DNA of 64,000 nt. Origin: Tachypleus tridentatus. Taxonomy: Eukaryota; Arthropoda; Merostomata; Xiphosura; Limulidae. The notes beneath the pieces were generated by a model. That model was not told where the DNA came from and ran no database searches. It worked only from the letters and a program-made list of their open reading frames with translations. This document shows, in pieces, positions 14,965 through 57,013 of the stretch (its first letter is position 1; every line of letters starts with the position of its first letter). A program made the position numbers and the translations under genes. The stretch spans positions 44,324,782 to 44,388,781 of the forward strand of contig NC_134833.1 in the NCBI RefSeq assembly GCF_004210375.1, given 5' to 3'.

Positions 14965-14965
14965 A

Positions 14966-16296
14966 GTTTTATCACATAGATCTCAGGAGCATTTCATCGT
15001 GGAATTAGGTTTATTGTTTTGTGATAGATTCAGCTCCAAAGCAATTTCAAGTCTATGATGGTCTTAAGGCTGAACAAAAATTTGACCAACAACTCCAAAG
15101 CCACAGAAAACACAAATGTTGTGATGCCATCATCACAATTCTCTGATGGATAACATAGCTTCCCAGGTTCAGTTATCATGGCTGCATCACAAAAACACTA
15201 CAAATTCCCTCAAGAAGATGTCGATAGCATGAAGGATGAATACTGTTTTTACTATGGCTTTCCAGGTCACTGAATTTGTAATATACCCTGTAAATAAACA
15301 ATAACAACAGCAAAAAATTATTAACACAACTTCTGCATCAAGGGCTGAAGAAATTCCAAATGTTTTAAACAAGTAGGTTCTGAGTTGAGTTTAACCGCTA
15401 GCTCATGTAGATTGAGTAGTCGAGATGCATTCATAGGTATGATGTCTAGTTCAAATAATACTGGGCTTAGCATTACATAAAATATGCCATTAATGATCAA
15501 ATTGAGTTTCAAGTGTGTTCTTGATGATTCAGGAGCTTCCTTATCTTTGCTCAGACATTAGTTTCTAATAGTTCAAATTTGTTCATAAAGAATGGTTACA
15601 AGCATCATTTGAGTGAAGAACGACATCTCAGATTTCAGTTTGACACTATTATTTATTCAGTGAGCAACTACATCTGTTCGAATATCATGTACTGGTATTT
15701 TAAAGGTGAACTTATAATGGAATTTGTTAACTAGTTTTTCTTGTACAAAATGTGAACTAATCTCTGTAGAAATACCACCCAGTGTTTAGTCCGAAAACAG
15801 TGAATGTTGGAAAGAGGTTGTAGAGCTTACAAATGTGCAAGTGATATTCTTTGGTGTGTTATGGTTGCTTCTCGAACGTCTGAGCTTGCTAGCTGAGAAT
15901 TCTGCTAATTATTTTAACTCAACACAGAAGCAGAAACTAAATGAAGCATTCATAAGTACAAATGATGAGCATTCGGTAAAGCGACTAATGTCAGGCTTCT
16001 TTGGAGTACAACAAATGTTGCCAATGCTGAAAATGAATGGGTATAAAAGGACAAAATAATATAAGGTTTAGAGATTGTTTAACTGTCTCCAGAAGAAGAA
16101 AGACATTAAGTAGGTGAATGAATGTGATAACACATTTTATATACATCATAAATGGATTCATAATGAAAGTAGATGTCTTATTTTTCATGGTCCGATGTAA
16201 ATTTATAAAATAATTAGAAATGAATTGAAAGGCGAGGGTTAGTAACACCATGAGAATGATAAAATTGTGATTTCTATTGAAATTTATGTTATTTAG
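14966..16296. other. Copy A, 5' part of unit, no recognised gene
   Basis: Short plus-strand frames occur at 15,178-15,277 (ASQKHYKFPQEDVDSMKDEY) and 15,835-16,059 (74 codons). Both recur in copy B (36,458-36,682 for the second). They have reasonable composition but no splice context or family that I recognise. The region should hold upstream cytosolic-domain exons if the transporter gene were complete, and I cannot find them. Confidence 0.4.
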
Positions 16297-16400
16297 GAGG
16301 GAAGAAAAAAGTGTATAGAAACAGATAAAGAACCTTCTATTGAACAAGAAGAGGAAGGAGAAAAATTACATGAAGAAAGTGGACTCAAAAAAACAGGAAG
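16297..16400 (+). pseudogene. SLC4 exon: end of cytosolic domain (copy A)
   Basis: Acceptor TTATTTAG ends at 16,296 and donor GTAAGC begins at 16,401. The 104 bp translate without a stop into an acidic linker that ends EKLHEESGLKKTGR. NBC-type SLC4 proteins have an acidic linker ending in an 'ELQRTGR'-like motif just before LFGGL and TM1, also at an exon end. This exon is open in copy A. Copy B has one A fewer in the A-run near its start. Confidence 0.7.
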
Positions 16401-16591
16401 GTAAGCCATACCAGCAACCTTTATCTTTAAACTGTAAAAGCTGCAGGTTTCATGTATAAATGTAAGCTTTATTTTACCTTTTTTTCTTATAAGGAGAGAA
16501 AGAATGCTGTAACAATGTGAAGTATTCGTTTTGGTTAATGTAATTAGCATCATCAAGTTGTATAGTTTGGAGATGGTAATTTAAACTGCAG

Positions 16592-16740
16592 GTGAAGACC
16601 TTTTCTTGTCACTGTTGGAAGGTCATGAGAGAGATGATGATGGAAAAATTGATGTAGCTGTAAGAGCTGAGGAATGTGGAACCCTGGAATATGTGGTGTT
16701 GCATGTTGGGGGGAATACTATATATAAAGAAATAATTATC
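16592..16740 (+). other. Exon-like open stretch, unassigned
   Basis: After a CTGCAG acceptor-like site, the frame reads EDLFLSLLEGHERDDDGKID and onwards for ~47 residues with good coding-like composition. It is preserved in copy B (37,205-37,350). Its phase does not join the preceding SLC4 exon (ending at 16,400) without an immediate stop, and it does not resemble the SLC4 TM1 region expected next. It could be an exon of another gene or an old transposon. Confidence 0.35.
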
Positions 16741-16935
16741 CCACCATTTTTTATCTCTGTTTTTCAGCTGCTTCACTCTCTCTCTCTCTTTCTTACAGTT
16801 GTGTCAATAAATATTCCACTCACTGATCATTTCTTGACCTCCTTATGCTTACCACTTAAAATATTATTTAAACAAAAATCAAAGTAATGTAATGTTGAAA
16901 TGTTGAATTTATTTCTGTTTCAAACTTTTATTAGA

Positions 16936-17049
16936 TGTGAAAAAGAAAGACAGATAGGAAACTTGAACACTATTTTCAGAAACACCACTCTAAAGGAATG
17001 AACTTTGAGTACAGACTTTTTGTTAGAAGGCTAGCCATGAAGAGGTAAT
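16936..17049 (+). other. Possible decayed SLC4 exon before TM1
   Basis: Just across a TTATTAG acceptor-like site the frame LLLDVKKKDR is visible. It recalls the 'LILDIKRK' segment that follows LFGGL in NBC proteins, and a GAAGAG/GTAATA donor-like site ends the block at 17,046. Stops follow at once in this frame, and TM1 residues are not found. Weak evidence. Confidence 0.25.
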
Positions 17050-17139
17050 AATTTCACTATCTAGTAGGACAGTTATTTTCAGGATTTTCTAAATAATAAA
17101 AGGTAAAAGGAAAAAACAATATTTTTCCTTCCATAAGGT

Positions 17140-17315
17140 TGGAAGGGCTCATGGTCAAGGGCCTGGCATGGAGTTGAAACACTTCACCAAATATGCTTCC
17201 TTTTTCTCAGCCATGAGGGCTTTATAATGTGATAGTCAATCCTCTTATTAATTGTGAAAGAATATCCCAATAGTTGGTGGTGGGTGATTTAAATAGCTGT
17301 TTCCACTCTATAAAT
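17140..17315 (+). mobile_element. Decayed SINE family 1 (copy A)
   Basis: It retains GGGCCTGGCATGG, then TCAGCCATGAGGGCTTTATA, TGTGATAGTCAATCC and AATAGTTGGTGGTGGGTGA in the family 1 order, with many changes. The counterpart in copy B is at about 37,752-37,925. Confidence 0.7.
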
Positions 17316-17549
17316 TATCACTTTAAAATTAAGAATGGTTACTGTGAATAACCTGCAAACAAATTTGTGCAAAAGTTAATGACAAATCAAACAACTTTTT
17401 ATCAGAACATAGTATATCAAAGAGCTTATTATAACCATAATATACCATATGAATAAATTATATTTTTCACATTTTGTTTACCATTAAAATATGTTCTCAT
17501 TGATCCTTGAAACAACACAAGCGGTCTTAGCTTGAATTTTTACGACACA

Positions 17550-18200
17550 AGTGTAGCTCTTTTATAAAATAGCTTATGTTTTTCCAATAGTAGTATTATA
17601 TTATAGCTCAACTGTGTGATATTTCTGTTTTGTAATTGGTCAAGCTGCTTGATAGTTGTTAATAAAATAGTGAAGCTGCCAAATATGTTCATTATGAAAT
17701 AGTTTATATTGTTCTGAGAGTTATGAAACATGTCAGTTATGGTGTGAAATACTTTAAATTATGGGATGATTTAACTGAGTTATGGAACATTTTAAATTAT
17801 GTGATAGTTGTGTTACATGATAAATTAAACTGTTTGATATTTTCACTGTGAAATAGTGTAAGTTGCATAATGAAGTACTGTAAGATATAGGATAGTTTCC
17901 TTGTGTAACAAAATAATCAAACTCAAATTGCTCAGACTGTTTGATACTCTAGTTGTGCCATGAAGAGGTTAAGTTGTTTGTTCAGTTATTTGTATAATGA
18001 AAAATTTCAAGCTTTCTATTACTTTAAATGTATGAATAAACAGTTTGTACTGTAGGTTAGTTCAATCACTTCATGAACTTTGATCTTTAATTTAGTTTTT
18101 CTGGTACTAAATGTTGTGCGAAGTTGTTATTCAGTTTGTACAATCTATAGAGTTCTTTAGTTGTGTTGAAAAATTGCTCATGTTGTGGGCATGGCTGATT
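17550..18200. repeat. Degenerate tandem repeat (copy A)
   Basis: Variants of a ~40-50 bp theme recur about a dozen times: '(T)TATGAAATAGTTTA', 'TTATGGTGTGAAATACTTTA', 'AACTGAGTTATGGAACA', 'ACTGTGAAATAGTGTAAG' and so on. The units are strongly diverged, so the array is old. It is shared with copy B (about 38,160-38,815). Confidence 0.5.
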
Positions 18201-18650
18201 TTTGTTTATGGAATTCTTTAAGCTTGCTTTCAAACTGAAGTTTTATAGAAATTAATGTAATTAAATGTGTTTGGGACAAAACTTTTACATGTATTTATAA
18301 AGACTGAAGGGATACTTACAATAATTATTTATTTGTGTCAGTGTGCAACTGATTCGTTTTTAGTTTGTATATTTATGATTAACTTGCCCCGAGAATGTTT
18401 AGTTTCAAAAAGAAATAATTAGAATTGTATTAAAATGAAATTGTGTGTATGCATCATCTCGTTGTTTGGATTATATGGAACATTTATTTCTTGAATTAAT
18501 CCTTTATTTGAAAGATTTTTTTGTTTGTTTATCATATCTAGACAATATTTGATTAAACAAAACACCAACTAACATGAGGAACATTTCATTTTTACCATCC
18601 TCAAAGTTTATTGAAAACTATCTTAAACATAGCAATACTTTTTTTTTCAG

Positions 18651-18782
18651 GCTGTCATGGAGAGTTTGCTCACTGGAGCTGTCAATGGACTGTTGTATGG
18701 GTTAGTTAGTGGGTAGCCATTGAACATTCGTGAAAGTACAGGACCAGTGTTGAAATTTGAAACAATAGTTTTTGTCATTTTA
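18651..18782 (+). pseudogene. SLC4 exon: TM2 region with nonsense mutation (copy A)
   Basis: Acceptor TTTTTTTTCAG ends at 18,650. The frame gives ESLLTGAVNGLLYGLVSG, a stop TAG at 18,714-18,716, then PLNIRESTGPVLKFETIVF. SLC4 proteins have 'SLFAGQPLTIxGSTGPVLxFE' here, so the stop stands exactly where the conserved glutamine of 'GQPL' belongs (CAG to TAG). Copy B has the same stop (39,330-39,332), so the mutation precedes the split of the copies. No clear donor follows, and a further stop is met at 18,783. Confidence 0.85.
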
Positions 18783-19019
18783 TAGATATGTTTTGTACTT
18801 TTTTGTGTGTGTGTTTTGAATTCATATTTGTTGCTTTTTTGTTATAAGTTTTGTGAAGAATTTAGATTCTGCAAGATTTATTCATTATGGTTAAAAGTTG
18901 TACAGCTCATTTATGTGTGTATGGTGTAATAAAAGTGGTTTTATACTGTTAAGTTAAACTCTAATGGTTATGTAATAATTTGGTTTCCAAAACATACTTA
19001 CTTCTACAGGCACTTATAG

Positions 19020-20500
19020 CTATAACTTGACTGCCAGGGTTTCTCTTTGCCCATCAAAGTGTTAGTTTGATATTTTCTCACTTTCTTTGGTCTTATACCT
19101 CACTCAGTTGCCCCTGGTGATATTTCTCAGTAACACACTTCATCTTACTGAGCAACCAATGGATCACTTACTACAACCATTAATATCATCTTTGTTCTTG
19201 AGTGGTATTTAGATCAGACCAACACTCAATATTTTACAACTTTTTGCTGTTCAACAAGCAATGGTTCAAGGTCTTGATCTATTGAAGGGGAAAGTTACTG
19301 TGATCCATTCTAACATTTATACAGTGATCTTGTAGATTTGCTGTTAAAGAGGCATACATTTTTAGGGCAATTGTTTTGAACTTTGGGTATTCTCTACTTA
19401 GCTCACTCCTATTCTGTCAGACTCTTGATTTGCCATATTCCATGGACGATGAATTATATATCAGATCAACTTTCTTAGCCCAGTTGAATGGATGCTCCTT
19501 TATGAGATTTTCTGGTGGACTTACTCTCAGTTTGAGACTTTGATTATTAACTCATTTGCCACTCAATAGAACTCTCAACTACAGACATTTTGGTTTCCAG
19601 TACTTCATCCTCAGGGTTTTTTGACAGATGGATTTAGTCAAAATTGGGCAGGATTGCATCTCTATGCCTTTTCCCTCAGGTTATCTGTTACCCAGAATTC
19701 TGGCTATAATTTGATCCACTAATTATTGAGTACTGTTGGTAGCACCAGGTTGGCTGACCCAAGCATTGTTCCTTATTCTTCAGTATCTTCAAGAATGTCT
19801 AGCTCTGTCACTTCCTCTTTGGCTGTGTCTATTGAGGCAGTCCTGGTCTGGCATTCCCAAGTTCAGACTTCATGCATGGAAGTTATACTGTCCTTTGCAT
19901 CAGGGTTTAAATTGTAAAGTTGCTTTGTATTTGCCTCAATCTATCAATGAAAATGGCACACTTACTGCCAATGTTGTCTGATGAGGAAATTGAACTTGCT
20001 TTACCCAAATGTGTCCACTATGTCTCGTTTTTTTACCTGGCTCTTGACAAAGGTCTAGCTTCACCTAGTGTCACTTTATCTAAGGCAGCTTTATTGACTA
20101 CTCTTTTATATACTAAACATTGAAAAGTATTTGAACGTCCAGTACAATCTGGCCTTCTCGGAACATTTAGAGCTCTTTATCCCAAATATCATTTTTTATT
20201 ACCAAAGAGAGATATTAAGGTGATATTGCATGCTTTATCTCAACATCTATTCAAATCTTTAGCCTCATGTACTATGTACAAATCTTCCCTTTCAGTATTT
20301 TTTGTTGCTGCTAGCATGTAGGCATCAGTGATTGAAGTGTGCACACTTTTGTCTTGCTCTTTCCTGACAGGTATTTTCATCCAATGACTCTTGGTATCCA
20401 AGGAAGTAGATAAATCCTTTTTGCACATTCATTTGCCAACTGTTTTTAATGTATGAACCTGATCAGACCCAAATCATTTGTGTTTTGTCAGAGCCCTGAG
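19020..20500 (+). mobile_element. DIRS-like retroelement remnant (RNase H end and tyrosine recombinase), copy A
   Basis: Mixed plus-strand frames around 19,600-19,910 give GFSQNWAGLHLYAFP-like, LVAPGWLTQALF and FRLHAWKL residues, characteristic of the C-terminal end of the DIRS RT/RNase H protein. About 20,000-20,330 gives DKGLASPSVTLSKAALL, then LPKRDIKVILHALSQHLFK and SLASCTMYKSSLSVFFVAAS, which is the N-terminal core of the DIRS tyrosine recombinase. DIRS elements integrate by this recombinase instead of an integrase. Stops and frameshifts throughout; possible extension to about 20,790. It lies where the central SLC4 exons should be. Confidence 0.7.
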
Positions 20501-20790
20501 GTGTTATGTGGCTCACTGTTCCAGTGGTGAGTAGTGGAACATCTACTATCTGTTTAGGGCTGGTCTATTGTGATGATTACTCATGTACTATTCCACCTTC
20601 AATACATGAACTAAGGTACCTATTCTAGATGTTGTCCTGTTCCTCCCATCTGGTACCATTTTTATCTTGGTACATCCTTGCTCTGTGCACATGGATACTG
20701 CCTATCTTTCAGGCCCCTCCATCTTTCAGTGTGGGATTCTAGCTATGTGGAAGCAGAGATAACTATGATTAGGAGATTAACATTTTTCTA

Positions 20791-21999
20791 AACTGATAAT
20801 TTGTTTTTCAATAATATTTACCTCTACTGACAATTCCCCACTAAAAGCTGGGGTTGGAATCAGTCTTCAAGTAGTTATAACATTATCTTAATGAGGTGCT
20901 TATATTCATTACCAAGATAGATGGTGTATTGATCGGTGGAGAATGTCACAAGATCACTCTAACCAAGGGCAATTAAGTGAAACATAAAGGACTGGAAGCA
21001 AACAAGAAAAAAAAATCAGACCAATGCTTAGATGGGCAAAGGAAGAAACCCTGGCAATCAAGTAATAGCTATAAGTGTCAGCAAAGGTAAGCATTATTGG
21101 AAATGCATTTTCAGTGTAAGAAAATGTTAACGTTTAGTTGAATAGTTTCTGTATTGGTACAAAATAACAACAGTTAATTTAGGTTTAGGTTGTGTGATTA
21201 GATAAGTTAGTTATAACCATGAACAGATTTCATATTAAGGAGAAAATGAATAAAACTAGTTTTAGTACTGTAAGGTTCAGTTGACACAATTATATGACAA
21301 TGTATTTGTAACAATGAGTATATTCTGTGTTAAGGAACAGTTAAAATAATAAAAGTGATTTTGTGCTGTCAGGTTTAATGCTGAATGATTATAAAAATAA
21401 TCTATGTTTTGGCATAATTATTTCTGGATCATGAAACAAACTGCCAGGCTAAATTTTAGATTGGTTGATTATGATTTGCAGCAGAATACACTGACTTTCT
21501 AATTCATTGGATGATTTATATATGTATATATTTGTGCATTACCAATGAATAAAATAAGATGAGTTATTTCAGGGTGTTAGACTGTCGTTATGGTTATGTA
21601 AGTTTAATTGTCATTTGGATCATTTCTGTATATTTGTGCAAGCTTTTATCATTGAACAAAATTAGCATTAATTTTATATTGTCAAGGTGAGTCTATTTTG
21701 TTATCAAATAAAATGGATATGCTAATCGGTGAATTAAAGTTAGATCTTCACGTGTCTTAAGAGCATGTCGACCACAGGTGGGATAAGTTAACCTCCAGCT
21801 GCTATCTCACATGCATTTTATTTCTGAATAGACTGAAACGACTTGTGAGTATAGTTTCATTTCAAGGATATAATGACTAGGTGTAGATGAGCTTTAAACT
21901 CACTTTTTACTTGTCCAAATCGTGATCCACTGGCTGCCCCAGATTATGTCACAGATTAGAATAAGGATAATCTGATTGTTGTATTAAGCCTGAAGGGTT
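20791..21999. other. Spacer between DIRS and hAT remnants (copy A)
   Basis: No SLC4 membrane exon, repeat or transposon protein could be recognised. The sequence is AT-rich and includes a short TATA-type run near 21,515-21,530. The counterpart in copy B is about 41,450-42,650. Confidence 0.4.
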
Positions 22000-23540
22000 C
22001 AAAATTAAACAGATACAACAATATCTTTACCCTTTCTTGGAAAACTTGTTTGTTCTGTTTTGACAATGGTAGAATGGAAAGAAGCTACAATGGGGGAGAA
22101 TATTTTCAAGCTTTTGGACCACGAACTGACAAAGAGGAAAATTCCATGGGAAAACTGTCTTAGTTTTTATTCAGACAATACCTCAGTTATGTCTGGTACT
22201 GGTAATGGTGTGATGGGACACATCTCAAGACGACAGCCTAGCATTTACTTCATGGGCTGTGCCTGTCACCTCATGAATATTGCTGCCCAGAAAGCTTCCA
22301 GAGAGCTACCCTGCCCAGTTTCTGATATATTGATAGATATCTACTATTTTTTGGACAAAAGTGCTTGCGGAAAACAACATTTCAAAGAGTTTAGGATTGT
22401 ATGACAAAGAAACAAGAAAAATTCTACAACTTGTTAACACAAGCAAGACTTTAAAAGTCAGGATATCCTCTCAGCCACACAGGGACACAAGACAACAGTG
22501 TCCAAAAGTAGACAAAGAAACATTTGACATAACTCAATATATGTTTGGGCACTCTGACCTTGAACTGAAGAAGAGACAATCAATGAAAAAAGAGAACTAA
22601 AAGCTAGCAAGAAAGTAACCAAGAAATGTTATGCACAGAGCAAGTTAGATATGTTAACAGTTTTCTTGGACAACAAAATGAACTTGTTATTTTGTCTTTT
22701 CCTTCAGTCTACAGTTACTCTATTTGAGCAAGCCAATTTGATATTGCAAAGAGAAAAACCTTGCATACACATTATGCATAGAACTCTGATTACACAAGTT
22801 AAAAATATACTTGTTAGGTACATCAAGCCAGAATATTTTGAAGGCAACATCACTGAACTTGACTACAACAATGAATCTTCACACAAATCTGATGAGGCAG
22901 TTTCTATTGGAAATGCTGCCAAGGAATACACTGTTAAATATGAAAAGGACCTGGACCTGATCAGTTTCTACACCAGTGCCAAGAAATACTATATTGCAGC
23001 TACAAATTACATGATGAAACATTTCCCACTAAATTATGAACTTCTGATTCATGCGAGATTGCTGATCCAAAACTGAAAGTCAGCAAAGATTTCTCTTCTC
23101 TATTCTTCTTCACAGACAGGTGTCCTGTCCTTGTCAATGCATATGAGCACGATACTATTGACAAGTGTGAAGGGCAATATTCGAACTATCAAATTGATAC
23201 TTTCTCAGAAACTGTCCTTCAGTTGAAAGTTGACAAGTTTTGGGTTCAGCTGTCTACAGTTAAGGATGGAACCAGCAACCAGAAGTATGACATTGTGTGT
23301 AGGGTTATGCTTGGAATTCTTACAATCTTCCATTCTAATGCTGACAATGAAAGGATATTTAGTTTAGTGACTAAAAACAAAAGCAAGTTCAGACCAAACT
23401 TGAGCACCTCAGTTTTGAGCAGTATTATAACACACAAGATGTGTATGCACTTAAATTGACAATGTTGTTATAACTTCCAACCATCCAGAGATATTCTCAT
23501 GAAGGCAAAGGCTGCAACAGCTGCAAAACTATCACAATAA
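22000..23540 (+). mobile_element. hAT-superfamily transposase remnant (copy A)
   Basis: The first open block (22,060-22,404) contains SFYSDNTSVMSGTGNGVMGH, then GCACHLMNIAAQKASRELP: the RNase H-fold core with the CxxH segment seen in hAT/ZBED-type transposases. Blocks at 22,361-22,600 and 22,651-23,076 continue in other frames. The last block (23,223-23,459) holds NADNERIFSLVTKNKSKFRP, the C-terminal hAT dimerisation motif (usual form 'NAxxERxFS'). No BED zinc finger is visible upstream. Three frameshifts separate the blocks, so it is inactive. An alternative is a decayed domesticated ZBED-like gene, but the frames and the surrounding transposons argue against that. Confidence 0.75.
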
Positions 23541-23749
23541 GTGTGATAAACATGATAAAACTAGTCCTTAAACAAAGGCTTTTTCTGCTCACTGTTTGTG
23601 CATGTTCAGTGTTGATTTACCAGTATGTTTGTTACTCTGAACTAAATAAAAGACGTAATAAAAAAACACAATCATAAATGAGCAATCTAAGCAGTAATAA
23701 ATAATAATAGTTATAATGATAATATAATAAACAGCTTAGAGACATTGGT

Positions 23750-24340
23750 CAGGCCTAGTAGCTGCAAATGACAAAGGACTCTGTCTACAATCATTACGCT
23801 CAGTCATTTGAAACAGTTGGCATCTCTGCCAGTGGAACATATCCTGTGATCCATCTTGATTCAAGGATCAAGGCCAGTCTTGTTTGGTGGCTCAACAGGG
23901 CTCTTAACACTGTGGGGATTCTTCTTCTTTCAACTCATGCTTTTTTCATCAGATGTGTTTTGGTGGGTTGGTTGCTATCCTCAATCTTTAGGAGATTTTG
24001 GATTGGTGATCCATCAAAAAATCTACATACAATATCAACCAGTTGGAACTCTTGGCAGTTTGTTAGGCTCTCATGCATTTCTTCCCATTCTTGTGAGGGC
24101 AGGTTGTTAAGATTTATTCTGACAATGTAACTGTCATCAGTTATCTCTGAACAAGGGACAGGGACCTACAACATCACAGTCTTGGTTTGTCATGTTTCAG
24201 GTGTTATGAGTCTGGTTGCACACCTTTCATCTTGCCCCAGCCAAGTTCTTTCTATGGTGTGAGATTGTTCTCATCTGGGTACACCCCATAGTGATGAATT
24301 TGTACAACTCATTGGAATGACAAACTTCCTTCCTTTAGGT
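23750..24340 (+). mobile_element. DIRS-like RT/RNase H fragment (copy A)
   Basis: Across changing frames the order matches the RNase H of DIRS elements: LVWWLNRALNTVGILLL, then NINQLELLAV (catalytic Glu region) and KIYSDNVTVISYL (catalytic Asp region) near 24,100-24,150, then LVCHVSGVMSLV. In-frame stops break each block. It is followed by a Penelope terminal repeat and then by the recombinase part, so the two probably belong to one DIRS copy that was split. Confidence 0.7.
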
Positions 24341-24359
24341 GTTTGTCCTACACCCCATA

Positions 24360-24520
24360 GCTCTGAGGGTAGATGCATGATGAAAAGAAAACCCACTTGT
24401 AGAGAAAAGTATATATGTAAAACGACTTGTATGGGTAGAAAGCGTTATGTAGAGGAGCAAACAACATTTTGACCTTCTTCGGTCATCGTCAGGTTCGTCT
24501 TTACATATATATTGCCAAAT
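24360..24520 (-). repeat. Penelope terminal repeat with hammerhead-like motif (copy A)
   Basis: On the minus strand: CTGACGATGACC (24,481-24,492 region), loop GAAGAA, GGTC, then AAAAT where the hammerhead GAAAC belongs, then the terminal-repeat segments CTTTCTACCCATACAAG and TTTTCTCTACAAGTGGG. CUGANGA box and stem II are intact; the first G of the GAAA box is changed to A. A second copy is at 45,025-45,180. It sits between the RNase H and recombinase pieces of a DIRS remnant. Confidence 0.65.
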
Positions 24521-24529
24521 TCCATCATC

Positions 24530-25030
24530 GCACATGCCTTTTGTTTGGTCCATTGCCAACTTTCAGGGGCTCAATATCTGTGTGTCTTCCTTTTTATCTA
24601 ATCCATATGTCCTTTGTCATTGTCTGTGTATCGGTGTCACTAGTCAACCTTTTGTCAGTGGTCCATTTGCCAGATATTCTGTTTTTCCCATTTTTCAGTT
24701 TCTCATGTGTCCAGGGTCTTTACCTACTATTTGATCAATGCTTGTCTTTCTCCACTGTTTCTAGTTATTGTGCTGCTCTGTTCTACACCTTTTTTTTCTC
24801 CTGTTTTCATAAATCCTTCTTCTTCTCTGGCATTTCTATTCTTTCCCATTGATTTCATGTTGTTTGTCTGCCCTGTTTATTTAAGCTTCTGAACTGGGAT
24901 CTCTGTGTCATTCTTCATGCCCTAGCCTATTCTCCTTTTGAACCTGTTGCTTTGTGTTCTTTGTACCACCTTTCTCTTGAGACTTATTTCCTTGTGGTCA
25001 TTGTCATTCTGATATTTATCCTATTAATTT
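24530..25030 (+). mobile_element. DIRS-like tyrosine recombinase fragment (copy A)
   Basis: Plus-strand frames give SFSTVSSYCAALF (core-binding helix region, usual form 'xxxTIxSYRSAL'), then LNWDLCVILHALAYSPFEP and LCSLYHLSLETYFLVV. The 'WDL...LxPPFEPLxxxSLxxLTxKTxFLxAL' order is typical of DIRS recombinases. The catalytic Arg...His-x-x-Arg...Tyr region is not found downstream, so the 3' part is missing. Confidence 0.7.
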
Positions 25031-25418
25031 TTCCAGCACTCTTTACCATGCTTCTTATGTTTTCTTTTTCTTGGTTATTCTCTCCTTCCCAAGACATATG
25101 ATTTTTAACCATAAAACTACTTCTATGGTAGAAAGGACTCTTTTTTTTTTTATTACTGAGTTGAATTATTCCAGGCATTAAAAGATTTTTTTTCCTATTA
25201 AAAGGTTACCAGTCTTAACATGTTCTATCAGAAATGAAATGTGATGGTAGTGTTTTTAAAAAAATGTGATAACAGCTAGTGAAGGTTAAAAATGTAAAGC
25301 TGATAATTCATATTTCTTTTCACACAAGTTTGTAATATAATCTCTTGCTGTCTAGTCCACAGTATTATTTCTGATGACAGCACATTTTGTATTTATTTAT
25401 TTTGATATTGTGTTGCAG

Positions 25419-25491
25419 AAAACAGCGAGTTACTCACTTGCTAATTTTCATTTTGGTGGGCTTATCTGTCTTCTTCACCAGATTGTTAAAG
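25419..25491 (+). pseudogene. SLC4 exon: late membrane helix (copy A)
   Basis: Acceptor TGTTGCAG ends at 25,418 and donor GTTGGT starts at 25,492. The 73 bp encode KQRVTHLLIFILVGLSVFF and five more residues without a stop. This matches the SLC4 segment 'EQRVTGLxIFxLxGLSVF', the helix just before the FIPMPVLYG segment. It ends in phase 0, as does the start of the next SLC4 exon, which survives only in copy B (46,794-46,862). In copy A the flanking intron runs straight into the deletion point at 25,560/25,561. Confidence 0.88.
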
Positions 25492-26177
25492 GTTGGTCAT
25501 GTGTAATCACTTTATTCTTACATTTGCTTAGAGCAGAATTATATACATTATATTGCAAATAGAAGGTGCTTTTTCTTAAAATAAAGTTCAAGACATATTT
25601 TAATTCATTGATTTATTATAATTAAGACTGGGAAAATACAACAACATAATATCCTGTTTGGAACAGAGAACTTGCACATAAACTATATATCCTAGAACCT
25701 GCATTTTAGTTGTGACTACCTGTGTACAGTTCGAAGTAGAGATGTGCTTATTTCAATCTTAAGTCCATATTAAACCTGTTTAACATATTGTAGTGCAAGC
25801 TATTGCACTACCAATGTGGTTAATTTAGTCTTCATTGTTTGTTTTTGGGTAAATTTTGTATATGATTTTGATAATACTTAATACAATTAAAACATTACCT
25901 AAAGAAATTTGTAAAGGATATTGTAGAAGTAATTAATAACATCAACTAAGAATAATAAATTGAATTCATGTGAAAAATAATATTTGATAAAAATATTTGT
26001 AGAAATAAAGTAATTGTTTCTCACTCGTTGTAATGTTTTCGTAAGTGCTGTTTTTTTAGTGGTTAAGCATTCTTGTGCATCAGACTTATATGCAAACTAA
26101 ATTAAATTTTAAAGTTTTTTACCATTGTCAAGCAAACAGAGAACTGATGAGTAATATATTTTCTTTTTTTTATGTAG

Positions 26178-26307
26178 TTATTTGATCATATCCTGTTCTG
26201 TAGAAATCATTCGAGCTCATTTGTTCACAGCAATTCAACTGGTATGTCTGGTGGCATTGTGGGTAATCAAATCATAAAAACCAATTTCCATTGCTTTTCC
26301 TCTTGTG
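26178..26307 (+). pseudogene. SLC4 exon: penultimate helices, deleted and stopped (copy A)
   Basis: Acceptor TATGTAG ends at 26,177 and donor GTGAGA starts at 26,308. The start reads LFDHILF, matching 'LFDRIxLF', which follows the GIQ end of the preceding exon. After a loss of about 20 residues and a frame change it continues RAHLFTAIQLVCLVALWVIK, matching 'KVHLFTVIQLxCLVLLWVIK', then a TAA stop, then ISIAFPLV. The length of 130 bp is not a multiple of three, in line with the frameshift. The same damage is in copy B (47,564-47,693). Confidence 0.85.
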
Positions 26308-26404
26308 GTGAGATTAATCATTTTTAATTTTTCTTAACATTTTTATAATATTAACTGTTTATGTCTTAACAGATCTAAATTTATTTTTTTGTTTTCATTA
26401 CTAG

Positions 26405-26545: not shown

Positions 26546-26689
26546 ATGTGATAAATGTTCTGTTTGTGATGGAAAATGTATTAAATTAAGTATACATTTT
26601 CATTACACTACTGATTCTGTTATTTCTGCATAAGAAAGCCACAGAAACTTGATGTGTTATTGATATGAAGAAAGCATACTTATTGTCTA

Positions 26690-45000: not shown

Positions 45001-45024
45001 TGTTTGTCCTACACCCCATAGCTC

Positions 45025-45180: not shown

Positions 45181-45189
45181 AAATTCCAT

Positions 45190-45695: not shown

Positions 45696-46083
45696 TCCAG
45701 CACTCTTTACCATGCTTCTTATGTTTTCTTTTTCTTGGTTATTCTCTCCTTCCCAAGACATATGATTTTTAACCATAAAACTACTTCTATGGTAGAAAGG
45801 ACTCTTTTTTTTTTTATTACTGAGTTGAATTATTCCAGGCATTAAAAGATTTTTTTTTCCTATTAAAAGGTTACCAGTCTTAACATGTTCTATCAGAAAT
45901 GAAATGTGATGGTAGTGTTTTTAAAAAAATGTGATAACAGCTAGTGAAGGTTAAAAATGTAAAGCTGATAATTCATATTTCTTTTCACACAAGTTTGTAA
46001 TATAATCTCTTGCTGTCTAGTCCACAGTATTATTTCTGATTACAGCACATTTTGTATTTATTTATTTTGATATTGTGTTGCAG

Positions 46084-46156
46084 AAAACAGCGAGTTACTC
46101 ACTTGCTAATTTTCATTTTGGTGGGCTTATCTGTCTTCTTCACCAGATTGTTAAAG
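46084..46156 (+). pseudogene. SLC4 exon: late membrane helix (copy B)
   Basis: Same 73 bp as copy A (KQRVTHLLIFILVGLSVFF and five further residues), with acceptor TGTTGCAG and donor GTTGGT. It is followed 637 bp later by the next exon in the correct phase, which is the arrangement expected of the original gene. Confidence 0.88.
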
Positions 46157-46225
46157 GTTGGTCATGTGTAATCACTTTATTCTTACATTTGCTTAGAGCA
46201 GAATTATATACATTATATCGCAAAT

Positions 46226-46948
46226 TAATACATGACAATTGTGTTTGAGCTTGAGGTACATACAATGTTTATTCTGCATAACTTTTTGATGGTTACTGTA
46301 ACTGAGGTTGAAAAGCTTTTAAACTTTGTTACATATATATTAATTTTTTTACCTAAGTTGTTACCAATAACAAATTAATTTATGTGATACCAAAAGTTTT
46401 ATATCAGTTTTAATGAAATTTAAGTTTAATATTTCTGTAAACTGTTAATTATTTTGGATGTACCAGTTAAAACCTTTTGGAAATATGTTTAATTATGTTT
46501 TATACTGCAAATTTTTATGTTAGTAGAACAGTTTTATTCAAAATGTGAACAGAATATTAAAACTGTAGTTTACTCGTGTGCAAGCAGAATACATTGTGAT
46601 TTATTTCTTGCTGGTCATATTTGTGTAAACAGCAAAACTAAACTTATTTATGTACAGTGTATATAGTTTTTAATATTTTGATCATTCATTGTACCATGTA
46701 ACAAAGAAAAACAGTTTATAATATGTAGTTTTTCAAATATCCTGTCTAGTCTATTCTAGTGGAATATGTGAAGCAAAACTTTTTTTTTATTAGTTCATTC
46801 CTATGGCAGTGCAGTTTGGTGTGCTTCTGTACATGGGTTTTTCTGCATTAAAAGGACTACAGGTTTGTCATTTGGTTATATAATTACTTGTTGTGCTATT
46901 AATAATATTAACTGTTCTATTGTGCAACCCCACTAAAGTCCAAAAATA
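46226..46948. other. Segment present only in copy B (~723 bp), contains an SLC4 exon
   Basis: Copy A passes directly from TATTGCAAAT (25,560) to AGAAGGTGC (25,561). In copy B the same two flanks are separated by this segment. Because it contains a conserved exon in the correct place and phase, the simplest reading is a deletion in copy A, not an insertion in B. No inverted or long direct repeats border it. Outside the exon it is AT-rich intron-like sequence. Confidence 0.9.
46794..46862 (+). pseudogene. SLC4 exon: FIPM...LYMG segment, only in copy B
   Basis: Acceptor TTTTTTTTATTAG ends at 46,793 and donor GTTTGT starts at 46,863. The 69 bp (23 codons, phase 0 at both ends) read FIPMAVQFGVLLYMGFSALK and three more residues, without a stop. 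It matches the SLC4 signature 'FIPMPVLYGVFLYMGVxSLxGxQ'. Upstream it joins the exon ending at 46,156, and downstream the LFDHILF exon at 47,564. It is one of the best-preserved exons in the window and has no counterpart in copy A. Confidence 0.9.
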
Positions 46949-47563
46949 AGAAGGTGCTTTTTCTTAAAATAAAGTTCAAGACATATTTTAATTCATTGAT
47001 TTATTATAATTAAGACTGGGAAAATACAACAACATAATATCCTGTTTGGAACAGAGAACTTGCACATAAACTATATATCCTAGAACCTGCATTTTAGTTG
47101 TGACTACCTGTGTACAGTTCGAAGTAGAGATGTGCTTATTTCAATCTTAAGTCCATATTAAACCTGTTTAACATATTGTAGTGCAAGCTATTGCACTACC
47201 AATGTGGTTAAGTTAGTCTTCATTGTTTGTTTTTGGGTAAATTTTGTATATGATTTTGATAATACTTAATACAATTAAAACATTACCTAAAGAAATTTGT
47301 AAAGGATATTGTAGAAGTAATTAATAACATCAACTAAGAATAATAAATTGAATTCATGTGAAAAATAATATTTGATAAAAATATTTGTAGAAATAAAGTA
47401 ATTGTTTCTCACTCGTTGTAATGTTTTCGTAAGTGCTGTTTTTAGTGGTTAAGCATTCTTGTGCATCAGACTTATATGCAAACTAAATTAAATTTTAAAG
47501 TTTTTTACCATTGTCAAGCAAACAGAGAACTGATGAGTAATATATTTTCTTTTTTTTATGTAG

Positions 47564-47693
47564 TTATTTGATCATATCCTGTTCTGTAGAAATCATTCAA
47601 GTTCATTTGTTCACAGCAATTCAACTGGTATGTCTGGTGGCATTGTGGGTAATCAAATCATAAAAACCAATTTCCATTGCTTTTCCTCTTGTG
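47564..47693 (+). pseudogene. SLC4 exon: penultimate helices, deleted and stopped (copy B)
   Basis: Same 130 bp and same damage as 26,178-26,307. It reads QVHLFTAIQLVCLVALWVIK where copy A has RAHLF. The family consensus is 'KVHLF', so copy B keeps the ancestral valine. Confidence 0.85.
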
Positions 47694-47790
47694 GTGAGAT
47701 TAATCATTTTTAATTTTTCTTAACATTTTTATAATATTAACTGTTTATGTCTTAACAGATCTAAATTTATTTTTTTGTTTTCATTACTAG

Positions 47791-47931
47791 TTGGTGGTAT
47801 TGATTTTCATCAGAAAATTGTTGGATTTTATCTTCACTCAGTGAGAATTACAAATACTTGATGTATGCCAGGGTCTGCCAGAAAAAACTTGAAGAAGATA
47901 AGAGGAAGCTAGAAAATGAAGAAAAGCATGG
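47791..47931 (+). pseudogene. SLC4 exon: last helix and charged tail (copy B)
   Basis: Same as 26,405-26,545 with the shared TGA at 47,842-47,844. The second stop of copy A is here TGC (47,866-47,868). The frame then still ends at a TGA after the A-run because of the same one-base shift. Confidence 0.85.
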
Positions 47932-48075
47932 ATGTGATAAATGTTCTGTTTGTGATGGAAAATGTATTAAATTAAGTATACATTTTCATTACACTACTGA
48001 TTCTGTTATTTCTGCATAAGAAAGCCACAGAAACTTGATGTGATATTGATATGAAGAAAGCATACTTATTGCCTA

Positions 48076-49636
48076 ATTTAACTGAGGCTCATATCCAGTT
48101 GTAAGATAACTGGATTATTAACTCTTGCTTTTTCTTTGGTTTTTACAAATGAAGATTTGAGCAGCATTTCCCTTTTTCAACAGTTGGTAGAAAGAAACAA
48201 GATCAAACAAGATGAGCGTGTTAATTCTCAGCATGTTAAGAAATATTAAGAAAGTTTAAAAAATGTTAAGGATCCTGGGCCAGGTAATATTTCCCAAGCA
48301 TTTTGAAGGAGGTTAAAGACATGATAAATGAGTCACTTGCTACTATTTTTTGTCCGTTTTTGAATATTAAGCAGGTATCAGAGTGTTAAAAGTTAACTAA
48401 TGTAACTTCTTCTTTCAAGAGAGGCGATCACATTTGTTGCAGTAATTATAGACCCATTAGTCCTACATCATTTGTGGAAAAAAATTGTAAAGTCTGATAA
48501 AAGATGCTTTGCAAAGTCATTTAATAAATTTTAGAAATTTATTAGACAGTCAGAATTGTTTCTGTAAAGGAAAAACAAACAAACCTGCCTTACAAATCGT
48601 TTGACATTAATTGAAAACGTTACTGCTCATGTAGATGAGGGTAAGAGTATAGATTTGCTGTATCTGGATTTTCAGAAAGCATTTGACAAGGTACCACATA
48701 AAATACTTGTAAAGAAAATTATCTCTATAGATGTTGGGAGATGTGTTAGTAAATTGGAAAAAACAGTTGACTGGATGGAAGAAAGTTAGAGAGGGTTGTT
48801 ATAAATGTACCTCAGTCAAAGTGGGTTAATGTTGTGAGTGGTGTGCTCCTTTTGATTTACATCAATGACATGAGTGAAGGAATGTTCAATAAATTACTTA
48901 CATTTGCAGATAATATTAAGATCTTGTGTCTTGCTGCCTGTGAAGAGAAAGCTGCTAATGTAAAAAAGTATTCAGATCATTTATTGAGTTGGACAAGTAA
49001 TTGGTATATGAGTTTTAATTATAATAAATACAAAAAAAGGCATGTGGATTATCATAATTACAACTATAATTTGGATGGAAATAACCTTAACAGTGTTATA
49101 AAAAAAAAAAGGAATCTTGGTGTAATAGCTGATCAGTCTCTAAAGCTATCAAAGCAGTGTGCTGTTGTTAGTGATAGATCAAATAGCATTTTAGGTTGTA
49201 TCTTCAGAAATATTGAATATAAGTGTAAAGAGTATATAATTTTATTGTATAGGTCACTGGTTAGGCTATATTTGGAATATTCTATTAAATCTAGAGCTCC
49301 TTACCAGAGAAAAGGCATTGAATTTTTGGAAATGGTTCAGAGAAGGGTTACAAGAATGGTACCTGGGATGAAGGGGTTGTTAGATAAGGAGACTGAAATC
49401 TCTCAAATTGTTTTCTTTTGAAAAAAAGAAGAGTTTGGAAGATACCTGACTGCGATGTTTTAGATTGTAAATAGAACTGATGATGTTGATGTATCATCCT
49501 TTTTTTCATATTTAACAGTGATAGTAGTGAGACTAGAGCACATAAACATAAATTTTGGTGTTAAATGAGTCATCTTTAGCTCAGAAAGTTTTGCTATTTT
49601 TCTTGATTATTTTGATTGATAGATACTAAATAATTT
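48076..49636 (+). mobile_element. CR1/Jockey-type LINE, 5'-truncated (copy B)
   Basis: Counterpart of 26,690-28,250. The region 48,834-49,421 is open for 195 codons because A-run lengths differ from copy A. It contains YINDMSEG, FADNIKI (the same Asn), LGVIADQSLKLSKQC and LYRSLVRLYLEYS. The block with IDLLYLDFQKAFDKVPHK is at 48,601-48,789. Same integration site in the last SLC4 intron, so the insertion precedes the duplication. Confidence 0.85.
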
Positions 49637-49834
49637 AATCACAGGTTCATTATGGTTGTAGCTAGTGAGTTAGATCTTTTAAGTCAATGTCCTTTGGAGC
49701 TTTGGAAAGTATTTTGATATTAACAAAATTTAATCTATTTTAGTTTTTTGTTTTGCTTTAAATATTAGTGAGCTCAAATGTGATGAATGTTTCATCATAA
49801 GAGTACTAACTTTAGTGTTCTCAATCTTTAACAG

Positions 49835-50085
49835 GTAGGAGTAATACCTCCTAAAGCCAACTCAGAAAATGTTGCTATTCCTCTAGCAAATGTCAACATA
49901 CTTAAGATACCTTTACTAAATTCAAAGAAGAAAATGAGCAGCTGAACTCAGACCAATCTAATATTAACATCTCAGGATAGCTAAACAAAACAGAGTTATG
50001 GCAGAGTTTGAAACAGAAAGAGCACAGCACCCCCAAAATTCAGCAAAAAGATACTCCTTTAAATTTGACGATTCCAAGCAGATAA
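49835..50085 (+). pseudogene. SLC4 terminal exon (copy B), frameshifted
   Basis: 251 bp versus 252 in copy A: one T is missing after ATACC, which shifts the frame behind ANVNILKIP. The TAG (49,978-49,980) and final TAA (50,083-50,085) positions correspond to those of copy A. Confidence 0.75.
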
Positions 50086-53000
50086 TTAAAGACCTAGTCA
50101 TGCGTTACAGTGTGATGAAGGCGTTTCAGTCTTCTGTATTATTTGTTAAAATTCCTCAGGTTTTATATATTCTATTCATATTATCAAAAGTATAGCATTG
50201 AAAACATTCACTATCATTTGCATGGTATGCTGATCTAATATCTGTTAAAAACTAAATTGGTAGTGGAAATCAATAACAGTGGAATTTCATTAGGTTTATG
50301 TTATTTTCATCTTGCGTAAGATTCTGCTAAGAAACTCAAGGTCACACAAGCTCATAATTAAACTGCTTCTTTTCAAATTGTGTTTGGCATGAGTTTTATT
50401 GGTATCTTGGCCTTCAGTGCATTAAAAGATGCCCATTTTGTAACTCTAATTGTAAAATGTTTAAACAAGTGCATTTCTAGTGATCATGTTTCACTTTCAA
50501 CCTTGACCTCTCCACTTCCTTTGCTTCCAGTGTCTGTGATGGTATTAAATCTTTTTTTATTGGATTCACATACAGAATTCCTATTTCTGATATCTAAACA
50601 CAGAAATAAATTAAAACTTTAAGCATCTCATATTTACAGCATATTTATGTATAGATTTATTATATTTAGTTGTTTAAAAATGATTTTAACGAGAATGGAT
50701 TTTGACTTCCATAAGATTTTTTTTCACATGAAAGAACTTGATTTATGTTTTCCTTCCTTTCATTTTTCTGCATGTTCTTCACACCTATAACTGGATTTTG
50801 AAAATATACGTTAATTTGGTTTTACACAGTTTTGTGTGTGTGAAAGTTGGTAGAATAATATAGCCAAAGAATGTATAGTTACAAGGTTTGATTCCAAAAC
50901 ATCTTAGTCAACAAAAGTGTAGTTACAAGGAAGTTTAATTTTGAAACACCTTATTTAGACAGAAGGAAATATGGTTGTAGTTTTTTTTGCACTTTTATGG
51001 GTTGTTATATTTTATGATAATTCATGTTACTTAAAAGTTATTGTTGTCTTTTGTAAAATGCACTCATCTTTTCTTTATATAGATTGAAAACAAGGCAATT
51101 AAAATGGTTCAATAAATGATGATGAATGAAAGCGACTTTCAAACATGTCTGAATATGAAGAGGAGGATGACTCTGGAATAAGAATCAGAGTACAATAAAC
51201 AAAGTAACTTTCAAGAGTCCATCAAAACAAGATTTTCCAGATGACACCACTGTGGAAGAACAGATAGTGAGACTAGTGTCTGACTGCACTGACCTCTAGT
51301 CCTAAATCTAATAGTCTGAACTGATGCTGGGTGTGTAAGTGTCTGAGAAATGAGATGTCAGCTTGATTCATTACCAGTGTCGCTCAAACCATTCTTATGA
51401 TTGATTCACACTGTTGCTTTAGAGGTTTAGCTCAACAAGTTATTCTGACTTGCACAGACTCCAGTACCACTTAGAAAGAGCAGTTTTACCAACATCGAAT
51501 CAACTGATACCCCTCGGAACCTCACCCTTATGTTTGTATGATGGGCTAAAATAATGTGAAAATTATTGCATTGAATAATTTGTTGTGACTTTTCTTTAAG
51601 CCAAAGGTCACCCACTGTGTGTTGAGCTTCCTAATGATAGTCATTTTCACTTTTCACTTGACTGTTTGAAATCTAATTGTAAGAATTAGTTTGGTTTATT
51701 ATGAACATTTCAGGTGTTACGTTTAAAAAAAAAAAAAACATTTAGATTAAACTCTCATAATTAGGAGAAATTTAAAATTTAACTTAACCTGAAGTGTCAC
51801 CATAGTTAAAATAGATTATTCTAACACAGTCTTAACTCTTATCAGTACAAATATTTTTTCTTCTTTAAACCATTTGTATATCTTACAAACCAGATAGTTA
51901 TAAGTTATCATGTTCTCTTTTCCAAAATGTCCCTTACCTAGATCATCAACAATAGACATTATTACACTCCTTTTGTCACAAGAAGTAATAGTTTTAATTG
52001 TAGCGGTAAGAGACATCCTTATCTACGCTTTATCATTAATCAATAGAAGAAATTGTCAGATCCCTTAGTGTCTTGTAGTTGAGGCTTTATGAAGATATAT
52101 TATTATTTACTCTACATCATTAAAGTGTCGTGTAATTTCAACTAAAGCAACAGGAGCATTGTTATTCAGCTTATCTCATTAGGTGGAAACATTATTCACC
52201 CTTTGTTGTTAGAAGGTACTGTAATTTAAACATTGTTAATAGCAGACGTTGTTTACCCTTTGTTGTTAGACTGTATTGTAGTTTAAACTTTACAATAGCA
52301 GACATTGTAATTCACCCTTTGTTGTTAGAGGGTACTGAAGTTCAAACTTTCCCAAAAACAGACATTATTATTCACCCTTTGTTGTAAGAGGGTACTGTAG
52401 ATTAAACTTTATTAATAGCAGTTATTGGTATTCACGCTTTGTTAGTTGTTTGTTTGTATTTTCATTTCTTCAGGAGAAAGACTTTGTGATAATCCATTAT
52501 ATATAACTATTAATTACAAGAATATAATAAAACTTCTAAAATAACTTTCAATTCTTATCTGGCCCAATACAATTTTAACACTGTACTAGTTATGTGTACT
52601 TGAAGTCGTAACACATTACAAAGTTTTATTGTTGTTTTTGAAAATTTATGATGGGGCAATTTTAGGTATATTAATCCTTTTCAGTGTAACACATCAATAA
52701 AGTAATATAGTCTATTCAAAGTTGACCCAAGAACATTATGTTTACAATGGCATGTTGAATGGCTTACAAGCTTGGCTAAACTTCCTATTTAGTTGAACAA
52801 ATTTTAGTATTTCTTAATTTTAAAGATAGGTTTGCCATATATCTTTATATTATTTTGTCCCTTACGCATGTTTATGTATAACTGAGTTGGTCCTATTGAA
52901 CAGATATGTCAAAACATCTTTCTTTATTAGTGTTTAAAACATTGAATTGCAGTGTTGTTGTTGTTTTTTTTAGTTGTTATAGTCTTTTTGTAGCTCCCAC

Positions 53001-56000
53001 CCCTTGTTAAAAGTTTGTATTTTCTTCCATAAATTAACTGTTCCACCATATTGTGAGTTTTAATAATCTTTTAAACATTGTATTAAAAACTGTTTAGTTT
53101 TTATCATCATCAACCTACTCAATATCAGTGGAAAGTTTTCTACAAAAGTTTGTATTTATTGATTTATTGATGTAGTAGCTAACTTAACCACACCAAGAAA
53201 TCTGAGAAGACAAATTAATATTCCAGTAACTTACGACTGTGTGATACAGTTTCACCTGAAAATTTACTATCAGTTTGCAGTAAACTTTTGAACAGTGTTG
53301 CTGATGATTCTTTGTAGTGCAAAAGCATTACTAAAGTTAACCCATATAAACTTAAGGAAACCACTGATGTGAAAAGGTAGATAAAGTTTAATTTTTTTCT
53401 CATTTCAAACAGGTGACTGTTTTAAAGTAAATCTGATGAGAAAAAGATAATTTTCCTCTTATATGAAACAGAACTGTATAAACACAGACAAGATGATAGG
53501 GGAAGTGTATATTCTTCACAATTGAAGCAAGTGACTATCTATGGTATATGAGAGTAGACTTACTTTTGTAGTTTTCCTGTTTGAAGCACATGGTTATGTA
53601 TGAAAACAAATGAAGGAAGGAAAAAAATGGTAGATTATACTTGTAAGGTATAGAGAGTTAGAATATGGGTATTCTAACACTGATTTCTTCACCACCTGAA
53701 TGAACATGTACTTGACTCCTGATAGCAAAGTGGGGTGTTTTAAAATTTATCTAGAAATTTTACACCTCTTGCAATAAAGTTGTGGGATCCCTTACTTGTT
53801 GTAAAGATAGCTAATTAACTAAAACATTTTCAGTAAGAACAGTGCTGTTTACTTGGCTTCAGTCCAACTGAAATCATGACGTATCACTCGTCTACAGTTG
53901 TTAATTTCAAAATATGTGAGTGATGTAAGTAGGTATCTACCAGCTGACTGCTGCACACATTCAAAATGGTAGCAGTGTTAAATGAAAGTGTAGTGATGTT
54001 TACAGACTTTTACACAGCACTTTTACAATAAATTTTAGCACAGAGAAATGTGTCATCATTGCAATTGTTTTTTCAAATCAAATTAATTAATTCTGAACAT
54101 TATATAAAATATAAAGTTAAAAGAGTTGCCATTGAAGACTGGGAATGTATAACACTCTTAATTCAATGTTTTATAAAACTGTTGATTTGACTGCTTTTAT
54201 CAAAGGAGTGTCCAAACTTAGAATGTAAATTAACAAAATAAATTATATGTCACATTAGTAAAACATTTTGGTTTAAGGATTTTGATAACAGAAAGCAACA
54301 GATGTGCTAAAAACAGGTGTACGATTAGATTGTAAATCTAAGTGAATATTACTAGGTAACAATGATAACTTTAAAATAATTCAATTTAATCCATGTCAAA
54401 TATGTTTAGTCATTATAAGTGATATATTTTGAACATAATACTTAACTCACTACAAATTACTGGATATGTGTTCAGTTCTGATCTATGCAGGTAACATAAT
54501 TTTATCGGAAGTTAATTATTATGTTACAGTATTACTTTACAAGTTACTAATAAATAGAAAATAGGGGTAGTTATGAAACTATTCATACTGCTTTATTTAA
54601 TGCTTTGAACATAAACAAGTTGAGAAACAAAACTTGTGTTCATGTCTGTTCATGCTCATATATACAAGTAAAAACATTTTTGAACTTTGCTATTTAACTA
54701 AAGCTGCCAGTTTTATTCACTTTGTGTGTGTAATGCTACCAAAACATAATCTACAAATTAAGTTATGCCATTTCACTATAATTATATAAATGATATTGAA
54801 AGAAAGCTTTACAAAGCTGTTTATATATTTAAAAAAAAAAAATCTCAAGTTTGCATTTTACTCAAACTTTACATTTTTAATGTAAGGTATATAAAAATAT
54901 TTGGAACAGAATTAACATAATTTGTTTATTACTTTCACAGTGCAATTGCTCTCTTTCTTTAAACAGATTCAAAATTGCTGCTGTAGTATTTTAATTTTTC
55001 TTGTTAATATAACCTCATGAGATGTTTATTGCATATAAATATAGCCTTGCAAGATTTTGGTGTTTTTTTTTACTTCACCATCATTGGACATGATAATGAT
55101 AATTACACAAAACAGAAAATACAAGATCAAAATAATGTTCAATCTGCATAAAACAAGAACAATAATGAAATTAACCAACAATGTTATTGATTTTTTCACA
55201 TGTTATAGTTTCAAAAGTAGGGAAACTATTTATGAGAACAGGTACAAGTTTCAAGTACTGGTGTGATCATTCTCAAATACAAAAGTTCAAGTAGTAAAGA
55301 TGGTTTTAATATACTTGTAAACTCATAGTATTGATTACCTAAGAGTGGCGGCAATGGAGAAAAGGAAATAAAATTAAAAATGTGAACTTTGTTAGACAAA
55401 CATTTTACTCATAGAGTTGTTTGTTACATTATTTTATCAAAACTATTGCTATAAAACAGAATAAATATACAGGAAGGTAAAATCATACACTATTACTGAA
55501 AATGCTGAACTAACTATATTCCTGCAAGTCACAATCTGATATAATGTATTAACTCACTAAGATTCATGAATTGCCAACTTCTTTGTATGTTATCTCAGAT
55601 TATTAACACTTAATGAAGTAACTGCCCTGGACATTTTGTCGTTAGTTAACTATTAATCGTCATACCACCAACAGCTAGGAAATGGTGAGTATCAAGGACT
55701 CCCATGTTCCACTAGAAGAATTCATGGAATGAAAGCAAGGTGGGAAGTCTAGAGGAGTATATTGCTCCTAGAAACCATGTTTTTAAACCCATGGACAGGA
55801 ATACCCTGCCTGCTTCATTCATGACTGGGTGCAGTTTGGATTTGGCCTTGTTTAGGAAATTGAACACTGCAAAGATATCTTAAGCAATGTGGAACATTGC
55901 TAGGCTGGGATGGCCCTACACTTTACAGGTTTTAGTTAAATATATCCTGGCAAGAAACTCCACTGAACAAAACCTTATTAGTTTAATTTAAGGCTTTTTT

Positions 56001-56584
56001 AAAGGAGGACATTAATAAAAGAAAAAAGATTTATCTACTCAGAGATGGTATGATAATGGGAAGAATAGTGAATAGTTGGCAGTCTGAAGTTTGATGAGGA
56101 AGAAATGGCAGGATGAAGGAGATGGTGTGCAACAAAAGTGGAAAGGGCTGTCCACATACCAGTAATACAGTCTCCTCCAACAAACAATGCAAGTGCATAG
56201 CCAATGTATAAGTTTGGTGATGTAATGGGAAGGCATCTGGAAATGTTAACAGGAAGTTCTATCCAATGAAGAATACATTACATGGCTAAACAGGCAAAAG
56301 ATTCCAAAGATGGAAGAGATGAGATTGGGTATCACAAAAGGAAGAAGTGAGAGTCAAATTGCAATGGACCACTTGAAAAGGACAGGAAACATTTGGGACC
56401 TAAATGAGAATAAAGGTGAGAAATGTAAGAAAGAGTAAAAGGAGTGAAACTACCATCACTCTCATGCACTCAAGATGTTTTATGGAGAAAAGCATGACTC
56501 AGACAAAAAAGCATACAGGAATGATGGAATAGAATGCAAGAATCCATAGCATGTACATCAGAATGCTGAAATTGGCAAAAAGGG
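50086..56584. other. 3' flank of the SLC4 pseudogene (copy B), no gene recognised
   Basis: Counterpart of 28,703-35,189. Same order of short, unassigned frames. The array at 52,184-52,446 is listed separately. Confidence 0.5.
52184..52446. repeat. Degenerate tandem repeat, ~58 bp unit (copy B)
   Basis: Counterpart of 30,800-31,062 with the same number and order of units. No unit gain or loss has occurred since the duplication. Confidence 0.75.
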
Positions 56585-56812
56585 TTTAGTTTGTTTGGAA
56601 TTGCATGCAAAGCTGCATGAGAACTACCTGCACTAGTCGTCTTTAACTTAGCAGTGGAAAACTCGGGGTAAGGCAGCTAGGTCATCCACATCACATTATA
56701 ATGCCCCTAAGACTGAAAGGGCAAGCATTCTTGATGGAATGGAAATTTGAAATAATGACCCTCAGAGTGTAAGTCAAGCACCCTAACCACCTGACCATGC
56801 TGGGCTTTGGAA
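56585..56812 (-). mobile_element. Decayed SINE family 1, minus strand (copy B)
   Basis: Counterpart of 35,190-35,402. It ends in a longer A-run (about 56,810) than in copy A. Confidence 0.75.
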
Positions 56813-57013
56813 AAAAAAAATCAAAGGTAGAGGGTTGTTGCATGCAACAACACAATATTGCATAGATATATGTGAGAATAGATGGAAGCCTCAAAGCTAA
56901 CACAGAGCAAAACGTTTTGAGTATAAAGGGCAGCAGTGTTTCTGGAAGCTAGACAGGAGAGGAGGCTGCATATCTTATCAGAAACTTTCTTATCCCCTAT
57001 TTCTTGTTAAAAG

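Follow-up and report, generated by a model that had tools for sequence, protein, structure and literature searches.

A head-to-tail pair of 21-kb copies with opposite gradients of substitutions and one-base indels: probably two alleles of one stretch set in series

When two long, nearly identical copies of a sequence lie head to tail in an assembled genome, does the pair record a recent tandem segmental duplication, or two haplotypes of one locus laid down in series? The question is raised by a stretch of 64,000 bases from the horseshoe crab Tachypleus tridentatus (NC_134833.1, positions 44,324,782 to 44,388,781; hereafter the window), which holds two direct, collinear copies, A and B, of a unit of ~20.6 kb and ~21.4 kb, respectively. 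An initial annotation had put forward just these two explanations. They are the right pair, and the divergence between the copies proves to be uneven, a feature absent from that annotation, which moves the balance towards haplotypes in series.

Structure of the pair and its joint

Self-BLAST of the window, together with a global alignment of A against B, bears out the head-to-tail arrangement of a 20.6/21.4-kb unit. The pair is returned as two matches, one joining 14964-25560 to 35603-46225 (98.19% identity over 10,656 columns, with 101 mismatches) and the other 25557-35604 to 46944-57011 (99.19% over 10,079 columns, with 40 mismatches), separated by a 723-bp block found only in B; likeness of this kind cannot arise by chance. 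As had been claimed, nothing lies between the copies: there is not a single N in the window, and at the joint, now placed at 35603-35604, the end of the unit passes directly into its start. The microhomology AAGTTTT proposed for this point did not survive, these letters being the first seven bases of the unit, found at the start of both copies. The actual overlap is of 2 bp (AA), which fit the end of A and the start of B equally, and an overlap of at least two bases at an arbitrary joint is expected with a probability of about 0.19 (~19%) at this base composition; thus, it is at chance level.

The outer borders are similarly unadorned. In a sensitive edge search, the end of the left flank showed no similarity to the end of the unit, nor did the start of the unit to that of the right flank, and an origin by recombination between flanking repeats is rejected, since the borders lack a repeat pair. 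Composition shows no break at 14964 or 57011 either, as the high CpG seen at about 2-12 kb of the window stops well ahead of the unit.

Opposite gradients of substitutions and one-base indels

The global alignment yields 147 substitutions in 20,597 aligned columns (0.71%) and 56 insertions or deletions (indels), 41 of them of one base. The earlier estimate of about 99% identity hides a gradient: the first 2 kb has 19.5 substitutions per kb and the last 6.6 kb has 3.6, the counts along the unit being 39 (first 2 kb), 53 (next 5 kb), 31 (next 7 kb) and 24 (last 6.6 kb), or 13.1/kb over the left 7 kb against 4.0/kb in the right part. The best single change point, 21,614, gains 25.9 log units in likelihood, as against a maximum of 9.5 in 500 uniform simulations, the scan grid of the simulations (every 200 bases) being coarser than that of the data (every 50 bases). 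By this test, the even divergence of copies of one age, which would characterize a true tandem segmental duplication, is not what is found.

One-base indels run the other way, the first 7 kb having seven of them and the other 13.6 kb having 34 (1.0 vs 2.5/kb), so that the many homopolymer-length differences described initially are a feature of the right two thirds and are few in the left third. The ratio of substitutions to one-base indels is 92:7 on the left and 55:34 on the right (Fisher p = 2.8e-7 for a cut at 21,964, picked post hoc; at five other cuts between 18,000 and 28,000 the p values are 2.7e-5 to 9.3e-4). Since substitutions fall while one-base indels rise, the differences between A and B stem from at least two processes. 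The supply of homopolymers does not account for the rightward rise, runs of at least five bases in B being equally dense in both parts (47 in 7.0 kb vs 99 in 14.4 kb). Moreover, of the 19 one-base indels that the last 6.6 kb contains, 12 sit in runs of four bases or fewer, as against two of seven in the left part. A is the shorter copy in 15 of those 19 (binomial p = 0.019), in five of 15 in the middle 7 kb and in 24 of 41 over the whole unit. The final 1.3 kb of A contains ten of the 41 (scan p 0.02 for the unit as a whole), and at the opposite end the alignment is free of indels, whatever their length, for the first 829 bp.

That opening segment has a peculiarity of its own: 15 of the 147 substitutions, mostly not error-like, fall within the first 209 bp of the unit (14964-15172 in A and 35603-35811 in B; ~7% divergence), a clustering reached in none of 5000 random placements of the 92 substitutions of the left part. 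Conversion from another copy, or the edge of a divergent haplotype, could possibly have produced it. Among the larger differences, the 723-bp block makes up most of the disparity in length between the copies, and, as it lacks a target-site duplication, its loss from A seems likelier than its gain by B. Longer indels of 20 bp and 9 bp also lie in the right part of the unit. A tandem array with a 60-bp period and 4.3 copies (30807-31059 in A and 52191-52443 in B) scores equally with Tandem Repeats Finder (TRF) in A and in B, and none of the listed substitutions and indels falls inside it.

For seven of the 56 indels, the altered copy was judged by a sibling reading frame or by other copies of a repeat; A appears as the altered copy in five and B in two. 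A fossil frame that we take, from its residues, to be that of a reverse transcriptase (the piece gave no Pfam match) is open through 216 codons in B and shifts frame twice in A. Conversely, a hAT-like fossil is open through 170 codons in A and shifts frame twice in B, all these breaks being of one base and private to the copy concerned. A 20-bp block absent from A disrupts another hAT-like frame that is intact in B, and the bases missing from A at two gaps, of 1 bp and 2 bp, are present in B; to judge by length they are also present in relatives at other places of the window, but the alignment to these is loose. Private one-base changes thus occur in both copies, which rules out errors limited to A.

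Table 1. Coordinates of the copies, their joint and the subdivisions compared in the text (positions in the 64,000-base window)
Feature	Start	End	Strand	Description
Copy A	14964	35604	+	20.6 kb; bases 35603-35604 (AA) assignable to A or B; self-BLAST and alignment
Copy B	35603	57011	+	21.4 kb; self-BLAST and alignment
A/B joint	35603	35604		AA shared by both copies (2 bp); neither N nor untemplated bases
Left third of A	14964	21963	+	substitution-rich vs B (92 in 7 kb), few one-base indels (7)
Right two thirds of A	21964	35604	+	substitution-poor (55 in 13.6 kb), many one-base indels (34)
Final 1.3 kb of A	34305	35604	+	10 one-base indels vs B; A shorter in 8 of 10
723-bp block in B alone	46226	46948	+	counterpart in A is the point 25560/25561; alignment

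False versus real duplication

Taken together, these features make it probable that the pair is an assembly artefact, in which both alleles of a single 21-kb stretch, from a heterozygous diploid, were set in series. The structure and the opposite gradients are seen directly; on their basis, we suggest the following course of events. One haplotype would have supplied the left flank and A, the other B and the right flank. A heterozygous stretch, in which the haplotypes were kept separate, would make up the left part of the unit, and the right part would be nearly homozygous, with one or both copies badly corrected, such that many of the differences there might be consensus errors. These would be densest where A presumably ended as a contig, and the overlapping ends would then have been placed one behind the other instead of being merged, at a join that would somehow have lost its gap. 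A heterozygous stretch that grades into a near-homozygous one and is represented twice gives the opposite gradients directly; those gradients are compatible with a heterozygous stretch lying beside a homozygous one with an excess of consensus errors, which falls short of proof. The mean substitution rate of 0.71% is in the ordinary range of heterozygosity; purely for comparison, PMC7210998 gives 0.8% for the mangrove horseshoe crab. The same paper mentions several contig pairs of a horseshoe crab assembly that overlap at their ends by 10 kb to several Mb, which shows, by analogy, that such a situation occurs.

Two adjacent, near-identical copies, each collinear with one flank, are what a false heterotype duplication presents, and they are what we find. 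In the 'flanking contigs' type of such duplications, as described in the legend to Extended Data Fig. 5a of PMC8081667, each flank is joined to a different haplotype. The locus resembles that description in that the left flank runs into one version and the right flank is entered from the other, with the versions in series and substitutions at the level of heterozygosity; it differs in that the joint of A and B has no gap of N. The false homotype duplications at contig boundaries treated in the same legend offer a second parallel, as the duplicate is about as long as a long read and error-like differences are crowded at one end. Against that parallel, the left third has dense substitutions and no excess of small indels, so error alone is insufficient.

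Several observations weigh against an artefact. The assembly gap that would mark a false heterotype duplication is lacking (0 N in the window), and most false duplicates in PMC8081667 have a gap between the copies, only some being joined by wrong gap filling. The 723-bp block and the 20-bp and 9-bp indels look like real polymorphism within the low-substitution part, which therefore cannot be purely homozygous sequence plus error. Consensus errors could also accumulate in a true duplication, as reads map ambiguously where the copies are most alike. The ratio of transitions to transversions, 55:37 on the left and 27:28 on the right, does not differ significantly (p = 0.23), and the indel excess in the last 1.3 kb of A is only marginal when tested inside the right part (scan p 0.051). 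Finally, B is the altered copy in both breaks of the hAT-like frame, so the errors extend beyond A. Because of the missing gap, the ambiguous mapping, the 723-bp block and the null result on transitions, we rate the artefact no higher than probable.

Tandem segmental duplication by microhomology-mediated joining is a well-known process. A real recent duplication of ~21 kb of this kind, made by end joining or by replication template switching with the 2-bp microhomology, is a possible but less likely account of the pair. It shares with that system the direct abutting copies and the 2-bp overlap, and it is favored by a joint so exact, with neither gap nor extra bases, and by outer boundaries without a repeat pair; the block of 723 bp and the crowding of 15 substitutions into 209 bp look like real differences, the latter lying beside what would be the new joint. 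Yet, unlike in that system, the divergence of A from B is strongly uneven and of two kinds. A single age predicts even divergence, and the change-point gain exceeds that of every uniform simulation; a 2-bp overlap, for its part, arises by chance in 19% of arbitrary joins. The duplication might perhaps have occurred between homologous chromosomes, such that the copies started as two alleles and the right part was later evened by gene conversion, the indel excess there being a failure of polishing in the most similar part. Conversion lowers substitutions and indels alike rather than driving them in opposite directions; hence, it could explain the substitutions only, and error must be added to a real duplication as well. 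Haploid read depth alone would be no refutation of a real duplication, because PMC8081667 includes a true allele-specific tandem duplication within one contig at haploid depth. In its specific form, with two alleles fixed in series by an inter-homologue event and the mutation-dense border (15 in 209 bp) left by error-prone repair replication, this account appears very improbable.

Two other possibilities, a collapse of three or more copies by the assembler and a union of unrelated pieces through a chimeric read or a gap fill, are together the least plausible of the explanations considered, the union of unrelated pieces being opposed both by relatives of one tRNA-headed repeat in the flanks and the unit, which point to one kind of genome, and by the unbroken composition at 14964 and 57011.

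Setting of the unit and what it means

As far as seen, the window is animal genome of an intergenic or intronic kind, since CpG is depleted over most of it (observed/expected 0.26 overall and about 0.15 in the unit), long open reading frames (ORFs) are lacking, and it contains tRNA-headed repeats as well as DNA-transposon remnants. With the bacterial code and ATG, GTG or TTG starts, no ORF of 200 amino acids was found. A Pfam scan of 10 of the 307 stop-to-stop ORFs of at least 50 amino acids placed two above the curated cut-off, one in the left flank (HTH_Tnp_Tc5) and one, by a narrow margin, in the unit (Dimer_Tnp_hAT); one other ORF of the unit had no PDB match up to E = 1. On the ORF search, this Pfam scan and the PDB search, we reject the view that the unit is a virus or mobile element. 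It is likewise rejected as foreign DNA: the CpG ratio drops before 14964 and is unchanged at either border, and one family of tRNA-headed repeats occurs in both flanks and in the unit.

Repeats with this tRNA-like head lie at 2936-3201, 7532-7799 and 12356-12487, the first two being 96% alike, with older relatives in the unit and the right flank (for example, 17204-17310, 35181-35281 and 58112-58286); neither Rfam at its gathering score nor ARAGORN at default thresholds gave a match in the window, these repeats included. The repeat looks chelicerate, possibly of a horseshoe crab, and strings taken from it matched nothing in viral contigs or in the papers searched. The Tc5/CENP-B-type transposase DNA-binding domain (HTH_Tnp_Tc5, E 4.4e-6) is encoded by an open piece at 11656-11973. 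The right flank also carries a tandem repeat of ~102-105 bp in about 2 to 2.5 copies (58671-59069). An imperfect palindrome of ~1.1 kb at 59478-60655 resembles a foldback or inverted-repeat element: 59920-60443 is 81% identical to its own reverse complement, and the outer arms (59500-59683 and 60442-60622) match at 86%.

On the artefact reading, the unit counts as one, and nothing inside it, gene or repeat, should be taken as duplicated. Should the pair be real, it would be a further recent tandem duplication, one in which no intact gene can be recognised. Gradients of substitutions and one-base indels that run in opposite directions along a tandem pair may serve as a useful sign, readable from the assembled sequence itself, of haplotypes combined with error.
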